From NCBI GenBank assembly GCA_038852285.1, contig JAWCKG010000004.1, positions 1 through 64,000 of the forward strand: DNA of 64,000 nt, given 5' to 3'. Of this stretch, positions 1,324 through 61,816 are shown in pieces (position 1 is the first letter of the stretch; each line of letters starts with the position of its first letter). Origin of the DNA: Candidatus Bathyarchaeia archaeon (GTDB lineage Archaea > Thermoproteota > Bathyarchaeia > 40CM-2-53-6 > DTGE01). The position numbers were made by a program, and so were the translations under genes. The notes beneath the pieces are model-generated. The model was given only the letters and a program-made list of their open reading frames with translations. It was not told the origin of the DNA and ran no database searches.

Positions 1324-1887
1324 TTAAGCTTTAAACCATTTAAATATCAAATAGTCGATTTTGCCTTTGCCATTTTTCGGGCAGGCTATGATGAATTGCT
1401 TTCTCACAGTGGTGGCCAGTCGACCAGCCCTCACGATTTCAAAGGGTCCCATCGAGTCCTTTCTAGATTTAACGGAGATGATGAAGGGCGCGTGATCTAT
1501 GCCGGGCCCTCTCTCATACACGGCGAAGTCTGATCCAAACTTGATCCCAGGGGTTACCACGTATCCTTTATCACGCAGATCCTTATAGATCATGTACGAT
1601 TTCTCGAAGTTGTTGTACAGCTTCGCCGCTTTGTTTAGTAACGTTTTCATCTTCACTGGTCTACCGTCTTTCTGGGACCTAATTTCCAATAAACCTTTTT
1701 CTTGGAGGTATATGGCCTCCATTATGTCTAGGGTTAATGGTGCTTGAAACTCTTGGCCGGGCTTCGGCTTCGGTATGCCAACGGGCTTGCCGTAAAAGCC
1801 TAGGCGGTAGAGGTGGTTAGCCTCGTTAAAATCCCAAACTATGATTCTGCCTCCAACCAGATTACCTATGGTCTTCAAGTCGATCAA
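1324..1887 (-). CDS. endA: tRNA-splicing endonuclease, catalytic subunit
   Basis: 187 residues, close to the usual archaeal alpha-type EndA (~180). The C-terminal nuclease domain carries the expected triad: Y124 in FAVYERG, H132 in GIDHAP and K163 in TVRKQF. The His-Lys spacing is family-like. The N-terminal half is the tRNA_int_endo_N-type domain. The enzyme cleaves bulge-helix-bulge structures in pre-tRNA. It starts at an ATG that overlaps the stop of the PhoU-like gene (ATGA), so the two are co-transcribed. Its presence matters because this window holds a tRNA-Gln with four introns and a tRNA-Gly with one. Whether it works as alpha4 or with a separate beta subunit cannot be seen here. Confidence 0.93.
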   Translation of the reverse strand: MIDLKTIGNLVGGRIIVWDFNEANHLYRLGFYGKPVGIPKPKPGQEFQAPLTLDIMEAIYLQEKGLLEIRSQKDGRPVKMKTLLNKAAKLYNNFEKSYMIYKDLRDKGYVVTPGIKFGSDFAVYERGPGIDHAPFIISVKSRKDSMGPFEIVRAGRLATTVRKQFIIACPKNGKGKIDYLIFKWFKA

Positions 1888-31813: not shown

Positions 31814-31896
31814 TGAAGAATCTAAGCTGCTCTGTTTTTGAAATGCTGAGCAGTTGAGATTAAGATACGAGGATGGTAGCCCGGGGGAGATTCGAA

Positions 31897-31909
31897 TTCG
31901 GGTTTACGT
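31897..31909 (-). other. tRNA-Gln intron 4 (13 nt, position 53/54 in the T arm)
   Basis: Exon CGGG pairs perfectly with intron CCCG. Bulges are AG^A and AA^T and the outer helix is CGA/TCG. There is no inner helix, only a 6-nt loop, so it is a bulge-helix-loop form. Confidence 0.88.
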
Positions 31910-31924
31910 CTCCCGTCGGCAGGT

Positions 31925-31946
31925 TCCTCCTCTCTGAGGAGGAGAT
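31925..31946 (-). other. tRNA-Gln intron 3 (22 nt, canonical 37/38)
   Basis: Anticodon-loop bases CTCT pair with intron GGAG (one wobble). Bulges are GG^A and GA^A, the inner helix is TCTC/GAGA, and the outer helix is the anticodon stem. It is a complete bulge-helix-bulge once intron 2 is removed. Confidence 0.92.
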
Positions 31947-31954
31947 CCAGAGCC

Positions 31955-31971
31955 CTATAGGGTTAGTTCCA
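31955..31971 (-). other. tRNA-Gln intron 2 (17 nt, position 29/30)
   Basis: Exon ATAG pairs perfectly with intron CTAT. Bulges are CA^T and AG^G; the outer helix is AGC/GCT and the inner one GG/CC. It splits the 5' strand of the anticodon stem, so it must leave before the outer helix of intron 3 can form. Confidence 0.87.
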
Positions 31972-31991
31972 TGCTATGCTTGGCCTCTACA

Positions 31992-32011
31992 CTCGGCGAG
32001 GGGTAGCCTCT
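31992..32011 (-). other. tRNA-Gln intron 1 (20 nt, position 10/11)
   Basis: Exon bases CGGT (5-8) pair with intron GCCG. Three-base bulges GG^A and AG^T flank this helix, and an inner helix GAGG/CCTC closes a 5-nt loop. The outer helix is weak, so this is a relaxed motif. Confidence 0.85.
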
Positions 32012-32057
32012 CCACCGGGCTTTTCCCCTCCGGGCTGTTCTAGGATTTCTTAATTCA

Positions 32058-32066
32058 GTATAAAAA
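32058..32066 (-). promoter_or_regulatory. TATA-like box upstream of tRNA-Gln
   Basis: The minus strand reads TTTTTATAC about 37 nt before the mature 5' end. With normal archaeal spacing, transcription would start near 32036, leaving a leader of about 15 nt. Confidence 0.45.
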
Positions 32067-34642: not shown

Positions 34643-35827
34643 ATGGACATGTATATGGTTGACTCACCTATCGGGTTATTTTTGATTAACGATCAAATGG
34701 AAATCGTGGGAAGATGTCTCTATCCCAAGGCTTCAGCCCAGGCTGCTGAAGAAGCCATCAAGCTTCTAAAAGGCTCTCCAAGCCACGGAGTCGTCTCCTT
34801 CCTTTCTCAAATCGGCCAAGCCACCGTCACCGTGGATAATAAAGACTTGGAGTCAGCCCTCAGAAAGGTCGGTGTGGATGTGAGGTTCGCTCGGCATCCG
34901 TTGATCCAGTCATTCAGAGGGCAGCTACCAACTCGGCTAATACAAGAGGGCGTTTTCAAGGACGAGGAAGAGTGGAGAAGTTTCGAGCGAGGCTTCGCCG
35001 TAGAAATGGCGAGAATTTCTATAGCCATGAGAGTTGCTCAGAGGGATATGGCGGTCATTCAAGCCGTAAGGGCGGTGGATGACGTTGATAAAACCCTAAA
35101 CCTCTTCTCCGGCAGGATGAGGGAGTGGTATGGTCTACACTTCCCTGAGCTGGATAAACTCTTGGACTCCCATGAGAGGTATGCGCGATTTGTCTTAGAA
35201 GTAGGGGATCGAAGCAACCTGGACGTGGACAAGCTGAGGCGCCTTGGCTTCGATGAAGGAAAGGCGAACATCATCTTACAGAAGAGCGCGTCTTCCTCAG
35301 GTGGTGAGATAAGCAGCGAAGACCTAACGGTGCTTCAAGACTTCTGCGAACGTATCCTCGAGCTGTATAGACTCAGGGAGAGGCTGGAAAAATATGTTGA
35401 GGAAGCGATGGAGGAGGTTGCTCCAAACCTCAGCGGTTTAATCGGCGCCACAATCTCGGCGAGGCTCATATCCCTAGCCGGTGGACTGGAGAATCTGGCG
35501 AAGATGCCTGCCAGCACCGTTCAGGTTCTGGGCGCTGAGAAGGCTTTGTTCAGGGCAATTAAAACCGGGTCAAGACCGCCAAAGCATGGGGTAATTTTTC
35601 AACACTCCGCTGTTCATCAATCCCCGAGGTGGCAGAGAGGTAAGATAGCACGGGCTTTAGCGGGGAAACTGGCGATAGCCGCCAGGCTGGACGCTTTCTC
35701 AGGAGAGTACATGGGCGAGGAGTTGAAAAAGGTGTTGGAGAAGAGGATCGATGAGGTGAAGGCTAAGTATTCTAAGCCTCCCCCGGAGAAGAGGAGACGT
35801 GCGGGTAGAGCCCGTAGAAGGCGTTGA
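34643..35827 (+). CDS. Nop5 (Nop56/58) C/D box sRNP core protein
   Basis: 394 residues. N-terminal domain to ~120, coiled-coil to ~240, then the Nop domain with APNLSGLIGATISARLISLAGGLENLAKMPASTVQVLGAEKALFRA, the RNA- and L7Ae-contacting signature. The tail is highly basic (KRRRAGRARRRR). It bridges L7Ae, C/D guide RNA and fibrillarin for 2'-O-methylation. The next gene, fibrillarin, starts inside its last 29 bp. Confidence 0.95.
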   Translation: MDMYMVDSPIGLFLINDQMEIVGRCLYPKASAQAAEEAIKLLKGSPSHGVVSFLSQIGQATVTVDNKDLESALRKVGVDVRFARHPLIQSFRGQLPTRLIQEGVFKDEEEWRSFERGFAVEMARISIAMRVAQRDMAVIQAVRAVDDVDKTLNLFSGRMREWYGLHFPELDKLLDSHERYARFVLEVGDRSNLDVDKLRRLGFDEGKANIILQKSASSSGGEISSEDLTVLQDFCERILELYRLRERLEKYVEEAMEEVAPNLSGLIGATISARLISLAGGLENLAKMPASTVQVLGAEKALFRAIKTGSRPPKHGVIFQHSAVHQSPRWQRGKIARALAGKLAIAARLDAFSGEYMGEELKKVLEKRIDEVKAKYSKPPPEKRRRAGRARRRR

Positions 35828-36497
35828 AGGCGTATACTGGATCGTCAACCATGATCGCGGCGGAGCGGCTCGAAGGCTGGCCACCGTTAACCTGTGTCCA
35901 GGCCGATCCGTATATGGGGAGTCCTTGGAGCACGTCGGCGGCGTTGAGTATCGGATATGGGATCCCTACAGAAGTAAGCTAGCCGCCTACATTATGAAGG
36001 GAGCTAAGCGTTTACCGATTAAGGCCGGGGATAGAGTCCTTTACTTGGGAGCGGGATCCGGGACAACCCCCAGCCACATCAGCGACATGGTCGGCGTAAA
36101 GGGGACCGTATATTGTGTTGAGTTCTCACAACGGGCCATGAGGGAGCTGATTGAAAGACTCTCAGCCAGGGTTAACGTTTACCCACTCCTCTTCGACGCT
36201 AGGTTTCCTGAAAGGTATTCAGGTTTCGTAAGACCCGTCGACGGTGTGTACTGTGACTTAGCCCAACCGGATCAAGCCCACATAATGGCCCGCAACGCCG
36301 AAGCCTACTTGAAGAAGTCAGGATGGGGGCTGATAGCCGTTAAGGCTCGAAGCATCAGCGTAGTCGCTGAGCCAGAGCTCATCTATATAAGAGAGCTTGA
36401 AACACTCAAGTCCAGAGGCTTCAAAATCTTAGATGAGAAGAGGCTTGAACCTTACGAAAAGGACCATTTAATGGCCTACTGCCTTTTTGAGGCGTAA
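35799..36497 (+). CDS. flpA: Fibrillarin-like rRNA/tRNA 2'-O-methyltransferase
   Basis: 232 residues from a GTG. SAM fold with RVLYLGAGSGTTPSHISDMVG, VYCVEFSQRAMREL, PLLFDARFPERY and VDGVYCDLAQPDQAHI, all fibrillarin signatures. It is the catalytic subunit of the C/D box RNP. Its 29-bp overlap with the Nop5 gene implies translational coupling and balanced synthesis of the two partners. Confidence 0.96.
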   Translation: MRVEPVEGVEGVYWIVNHDRGGAARRLATVNLCPGRSVYGESLEHVGGVEYRIWDPYRSKLAAYIMKGAKRLPIKAGDRVLYLGAGSGTTPSHISDMVGVKGTVYCVEFSQRAMRELIERLSARVNVYPLLFDARFPERYSGFVRPVDGVYCDLAQPDQAHIMARNAEAYLKKSGWGLIAVKARSISVVAEPELIYIRELETLKSRGFKILDEKRLEPYEKDHLMAYCLFEA

Positions 36498-61728: not shown

Positions 61729-61816
61729 GCGGCCGTAGTCTAGCCTGGCCTAGGACGTCGGCCTCCCATACGAGGGAAAGTCGGTGACCCGGGTTCGAAT
61801 CCCGGCGGCCGCACCA
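61729..61816 (+). tRNA. tRNA-Gly (anticodon CCC) with a 10-nt intron, CCA encoded
   Basis: Acceptor GCGGCCG/CGGCCGC, D stem GTCT/GGAC, T stem CCGGG/CCCGG with loop TTCGAAT, discriminator A, CCA present. The anticodon stem TCGGC pairs with GTCGG only if ten bases in the loop (61769-61778 or 61770-61779) are removed. The loop then reads CTCCCA plus one base, anticodon CCC. TCCC of the loop pairs with intron GGGA. Mature length 78 nt including CCA. Confidence 0.92.
61769..61778 (+). other. tRNA-Gly intron (10 nt, near 37/38)
   Basis: Very short intron. Two splice registers one base apart give position 38 as A or T. The shifted register (61770-61779) gives a perfect 4-bp central helix TCCC/GGGA; the canonical one gives three pairs. 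Confidence 0.7.

Follow-up and report, generated by a model that had tools for sequence, protein, structure and literature searches.

A Bathyarchaeia tRNA-Gln(CUG) gene with four introns and a candidate acceptor-strand surrogate in its leader

The window analyzed here comprises the first 64,000 nucleotides (nt) of contig JAWCKG010000004.1 from a Candidatus Bathyarchaeia archaeon (assembly GCA_038852285.1). It carries a transfer RNA (tRNA) gene, tRNA-Gln(CUG), that is interrupted by four introns and preceded by a second copy of its own 5' acceptor strand. From sequence comparison and energy modelling, on which all results below rest, we read the locus as a working four-intron gene whose transcript opens with a spare 5' acceptor strand, a surrogate in cis that aids the splicing of the first intron. 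The probability of this reading was estimated to be roughly 0.7. We also consider it likely that such leaders represent an undescribed cis RNA element of at least three isotypes and several Bathyarchaeia families: a 5'-terminal duplicate of the acceptor strand, serving as a temporary stand-in that lets acceptor-using introns be removed and allows introns at sites that tRNA folding would otherwise preclude.

The tRNA-Gln(CUG) gene and its introns

The gene is on the minus strand, which the first-pass annotation of this DNA had left unstated, and has the following parts.

31874..32021, minus strand: tRNA-Gln(CUG) gene, 148 nt; 76-nt mature form once the four introns are removed
31992..32011, minus strand: intron 1 (I1), position 10/11, 20 nt; central helix CGGU (acceptor nt 5-8)/GCCG, inner helix GAGG/CCUC
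31955..31971, minus strand: intron 2 (I2), position 29/30, 17 nt; central helix ATAG/CTAT
31925..31946, minus strand: intron 3 (I3), canonical position 37/38, 22 nt; central helix CTCT/GGAG
31897..31909, minus strand: intron 4 (I4), position 53/54, 13 nt; central helix CGGG/CCCG, without inner helix
31876-31874, minus strand: encoded CCA
Minus strand from 32021 to 31874, bracketed figures being introns: AGCCCGGTGG[20]TGTAGAGGCCAAGCATAGCA[17]GGCTCTGG[22]ACCTGCCGACGGGAG[13]TTCGAATCTCCCCCGGGCTACCA

The introns were located by a beam-search splicer that was given general tRNA features and the requirement for a 4-base-pair central helix with 3-nt bulges, and nothing else. At this locus, it returned four introns (10/11, 29/30, 37/38, and 53/54) and a 73-nt body with an encoded CCA and the anticodon CTG. 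The best score was 66.8. When the 140 nt preceding the T loop were dinucleotide-shuffled 120 times and up to five introns were permitted, the scores had a mean of 27.3 (standard deviation 5.6, maximum 39.7). The first-pass annotation had placed introns of 20, 17, 22, and 13 nt in a tRNA-Gln gene at 31874-32021; its coordinates were exact, and the splicer gave identical introns. The 76-nt product that it described, with anticodon CTG and encoded CCA, agreed with both the sequence and the splicer, and its central helices (CGGT/GCCG, ATAG/CTAT, CTCT/GGAG, and CGGG/CCCG) had 4/4 pairs and 3-nt bulges at all four junctions. Every stem of the spliced form was intact, giving a canonical tRNA, and the inner helix of I1 covaried in the bulged register. 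The gene was missed by both ARAGORN and Rfam at its gathering threshold, and Rfam scans of the Gln loci by E-value gave nothing beyond chance-level matches.

Among orthologues of the CUG type, central helices kept 3/4 or 4/4 pairs at the junctions of I2, I3, and, in genes that have it, I4, and intron lengths varied; the comparison of relatives' Gln genes that had been proposed in the first pass found these junctions recurring. A dead or mis-assembled gene that is never processed might be suspected, as four introns exceed the published maximum and the draft genome is spread over 42 contigs. However, this is hardly credible given the intact stems of the spliced form, the junctions and exons kept in orthologues of other genera, the endonuclease subunits encoded in the genome, and the fact that no other CUG gene was found. 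The locus is a genuine tRNA-Gln(CUG) gene that probably functions, with four introns of the endonuclease type.

The tRNA genes of the host genome were gathered from RF00005 matches and from DNA and pattern searches, and the set is incomplete. The tRNA-Gln(UUG) gene on contig C18 of the same genome also had four introns according to the splicer (10/11, 24/25, 37/38, and 53/54). Neither a second Gln(CUG) copy nor any further Gln gene, with or without introns, was found in the 99%-complete assembly. Four-intron Gln genes were found in the related genomes G008 and G006 (splicer) and G025 and G036 (junctions read by hand), and four-intron Asn genes of relatives were L309 (splicer) and L296, L307, L308, and L311 (inspection). 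By these assignments, four-intron tRNA genes are recurrent in one archaeal order and no one-off. The first-pass annotation had regarded four introns as at or beyond the usual limit. The published archaeal maximum is three per tRNA gene (PMC8450103, PMC4390854, PMC3218864), but the gene is no isolated extreme, since the UUG gene and those of relatives also have four. I4 (31897-31909) was identical at 12/13 positions between the CUG gene and the UUG gene L061 (ACGTAAACCCGAA vs. ACATAAACCCGAA), which suggests gene conversion or a recent shared origin.

Splicing had also been proposed to be ordered. The outer helix of I2 (C23-G31, G22-C32, and A21-U33) overlaps the central helix of I3 (positions 32-35), and because the same bases are used, the I2 and I3 motifs cannot coexist. 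The accompanying claim that the I3 outer helix exists only after I2 leaves was overstated; two Watson-Crick pairs and one G-U pair were available before I2 removal and five pairs afterwards. Removal of I2 before I3 would be the simpler order.

Leader copies of the acceptor strand

The sequence directly upstream of tRNA-Gln(CUG) is AGCCCGGAGGGGAAA, and its first seven bases exactly repeat the 5' acceptor strand. The first-pass annotation ended at the mature 5' end, so the copy, which tells us more than any other part of the locus, lay outside its coordinates.

32030..32036, minus strand: leader copy AGCCCGG, proposed to pair with the 3' acceptor strand as a surrogate; located 15 nt upstream of the mature 5' end
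32059..32066, minus strand: TATA-like element TTTTTATA, 22 nt before the leader copy

A 10/11-intron pattern was run over 257 genomes of the class Bathyarchaeia. Under the strict pattern, 23 Gln genes from 18 genomes and several families were retrieved, and the leader copy was present in 23/23; adding the variant genes L268 and L272, it was present in all 25 Bathyarchaeia Gln genes with a 10/11 intron. Among Gln genes without this intron, exact copies were found in 3/72 (L218, whose sister genes have no copy, L069, and L071). The Fisher test for the strict pattern (23/23 vs. 5/74) gave 9e-18, a value that ignores shared ancestry. The contrast was also observed within the single genomes G083, G086, and G039 but failed within G008 and G025, where the second Gln gene has a distant copy.

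The acceptors of L069 (Gln, G025) and L071 (Gln, G008) read AACCCGG, with an A2-C71 mismatch, and the two genera have similar spacers. Imperfect acceptor-like stretches were observed 8-10 nt upstream of four Gln genes without a 10/11 intron (L245, L246, L247, and L259); they are possibly decayed leader copies or occur by chance.

The same rule was found in two other isotypes. A scan of the other recovered tRNA genes of the host genome identified one further exact copy, in tRNA-Asn(GUU), with an 8/9 intron and the leader GCCGCCG. In the order to which the window belongs, the 8/9 intron and the leader occurred together in 29/29 Asn genes (28 exact, one G-U-compatible). In the rest of the class, the acceptor is shared by 24 genes without the 8/9 intron (about 18 Asn and 6 Phe), and copies were found in two of them, one exact (L353) and one near copy (Fisher, 6e-13, again ignoring shared ancestry). 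Both the Asn-type intron and the leader also occurred in two further families of the class (G065 and G206); among genomes of the phylum sampled outside the class, the exact pattern was unseen. For tRNA-Thr, an 8/9 intron was found in three genes of three genomes, each with the 5-nt copy GCCCC.

Promoter placement suggests that the copy is transcribed. As the TATA-like element lies 22 nt before the copy in the window, transcription likely starts at the copy. For the 25 Gln genes with a copy, the A+T peak was 24-30 nt upstream of the copy and about 44 nt from the mature end, and for genes lacking the intron, the distance to the mature end was 32-36 nt; from this peak position, the primary transcript probably starts with the copy. 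The copy could instead be a signal in DNA, such as an initiator or promoter element, as it sits at the probable transcription start with a purine as its first base. Nevertheless, its sequence varies by isotype and matches the acceptor of its own gene (GCCCGG, GCCGCCG, and GCCCC), which favours RNA pairing over a DNA signal, and most tRNA genes of the host genome have no copy. We regard a DNA-level role as very unlikely.

Leader folding and the proposed splicing route

In Gln, the central helix of the 10/11 intron takes acceptor nucleotides 5-8, and in Asn and Thr, that of the 8/9 intron takes acceptor nucleotides 3-6; the splice motif therefore competes with the acceptor stem. In RNAfold models of the Gln genes, the leader paired with the 3' acceptor strand with a mean probability of 0.94. 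The probability of the I1 central helix was 0.69 with the leader, 0.03 without it, and 0.16 with a shuffled leader, and it was raised by the leader in 25/25 Gln genes. Forcing the bulged I1 motif cost 4.6 kcal/mol with the leader vs. 9.4 without it in Gln, and forcing the central helix cost 4.2 vs. 9.0 kcal/mol in Asn. The direction was the same in every Gln and Asn gene tested; many Gln genes had the motif as their dominant state, and Asn genes did not.

Splicing with a surrogate strand would proceed in five steps. Transcription would start at the leader copy, and the copy would pair with the 3' acceptor strand, leaving the real 5' strand unlocked from the acceptor stem, as predicted in silico. 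Nucleotides 5-8 of the real strand would pair with the 3' end of I1 to form a bulge-helix-bulge (BHB) for a two-subunit endonuclease, which is also seen in the models. Each remaining intron would be excised through its own motif, with I2 and I3 unable to form theirs at the same time. Once the exons are ligated, the copy would be ousted by the real acceptor strand, and RNase P would trim the leader.

The roles of the two copies could be exchanged: the leader would then supply the true 5' acceptor strand, and the sequence separating the two copies would be a fifth intron. Stable pairing of the leader with the 3' strand is predicted even without I1, and CCGG is able to pair with CCGG. This arrangement was rejected, as in every gene inspected the usual 2/3 bulge cut would turn the universal U8 into A or G, so that U8 would be lost. 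About 40% of the Gln leaders begin with G rather than A, which also speaks against it, and we judge it highly improbable. The leader was further considered as the outer helix of the I1 motif; this was rejected, as nothing downstream of the 3' bulge pairs with positions 1-4.

Several observations weigh against a splicing role for the copy. L069 and L071 carry an exact copy 35 nt upstream without a 10/11 intron, L034 and L035 carry a copy with one G-U-compatible change and no such intron, and the Asn gene L353 (G237) has a copy at -35 and no acceptor-proximal intron. In the energy models, the Asn motif remained a minority state despite the leader, the I1 motif of the window gene reached only 0.30 at 37 °C and 0.52 at 70 °C, and some I1 introns had an unbulged helix competing with the bulged one. 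Removal of I1 alone did not restore the true acceptor pairing, as RNAfold kept preferring the leader; the strand exchange thus needs other help, for example from tertiary structure, proteins, or RNase P.

In another reading, the four-intron tRNA is real and the copy is a by-product of acceptor-proximal intron gain, for example by duplication at insertion, with no role in splicing. The copy is a short direct repeat that adjoins an insertion, and it persists without the intron in several Gln genes and in one Asn gene. A by-product nevertheless seems unlikely to us, because the copy is exact across families whereas spacers and intron sequences diverge, is almost missing where the intron is missing, and is found with three different acceptor sequences. 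Moreover, its rare changes (A/G at position 1, GCCUGG, and GCCGUCG) preserve pairing with the 3' acceptor strand. A surrogate strand that aids I1 splicing remains the reading that we prefer.

In the host genome, two PF01974 genes were found, one alpha-like and one beta-like, together with an RNase P RNA gene.

1324..1887, minus strand: tRNA splicing endonuclease catalytic (alpha-type) subunit, PF01974
G000:C2:106620-106853: second endonuclease subunit, beta-like, PF01974

The best sequence matches of the alpha-type subunit include solved structures of the Aeropyrum and Pyrobaculum type. Endonucleases of the alpha2beta2 form have been linked to non-canonical and multiple introns in a review (PMC4090602). 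We infer that the two subunits assemble into a two-subunit endonuclease and that ligation follows.

Two other tRNA genes of the host genome showed unusual features. At 61729-61816 (plus strand), ARAGORN reported 'tRNA-???' with anticodon 'cc', which corresponds to tRNA-Gly(CCC) with a 10-nt intron at 36/37. Near G000:C6 37470-37630 (L027, 1406 onward), the 5' acceptor of a tRNA-Asp(GUC), expected to be CCCTTGG, is seemingly interrupted, perhaps by an acceptor-stem intron.

The gene raises the known number of introns per tRNA gene from three to four. The surrogate strand provides a testable answer to the folding puzzle of an intron placed at a site where splice motif and acceptor stem compete. 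If it is correct, a pre-tRNA leader can act as a folding device and is not waste, gene finders that end at mature ends overlook it, and the leader is a marker of hidden acceptor-proximal introns.

Comparison with known systems

No earlier report of four-intron tRNAs, Bathyarchaeia tRNA introns, or acceptor-complementary leaders was found, which is weak evidence given the partial coverage of the literature. The first-pass annotation had set multiple non-canonical introns mainly in Thermoproteales; the lineage here is Bathyarchaeia, as a Nop5 protein tree placed the class relatives among named Bathyarchaeota and the order of the window in a separate deep clade. The Nop5 and fibrillarin-like genes (C/D-box RNA methylation) are adjacent at 34643-36497, 2.6 kb from the tRNA gene.

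Within Thermoproteales, tRNA-Glu(UUC) of Pyrobaculum calidifontis and tRNA-Pro(UGG) of P. islandicum are alike in having crowded introns, one of which has to leave before the next motif forms (PMC8450103, PMC4390854). Multi-intron pre-tRNAs of that order have at most three introns, in contrast to four in Bathyarchaeia, and an acceptor-strand copy in the leader is unmentioned in these papers. The CUG tRNA of Caldiarchaeum subterraneum (PMC3293823, printed as Glu[CUG]) shares the anticodon, the presence of more than one intron, and a position outside Thermoproteales; however, the paper describes 'multiple' introns and three as the maximum of the field, whereas four were found here.

The split and permuted tRNAs of Nanoarchaeum, Caldivirga, and Thermofilum are alike in that complementary leaders shape a BHB substrate for the endonuclease (PMC4090602, PMC3218864). 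The tRNA-Gln(CUG) gene is neither split nor permuted, with all exons colinear in one 148-nt stretch. In split and permuted tRNAs, the leader and trailer pair with each other and form the splice site, whereas the leader described here would pair with the 3' acceptor exon and free another exon strand.
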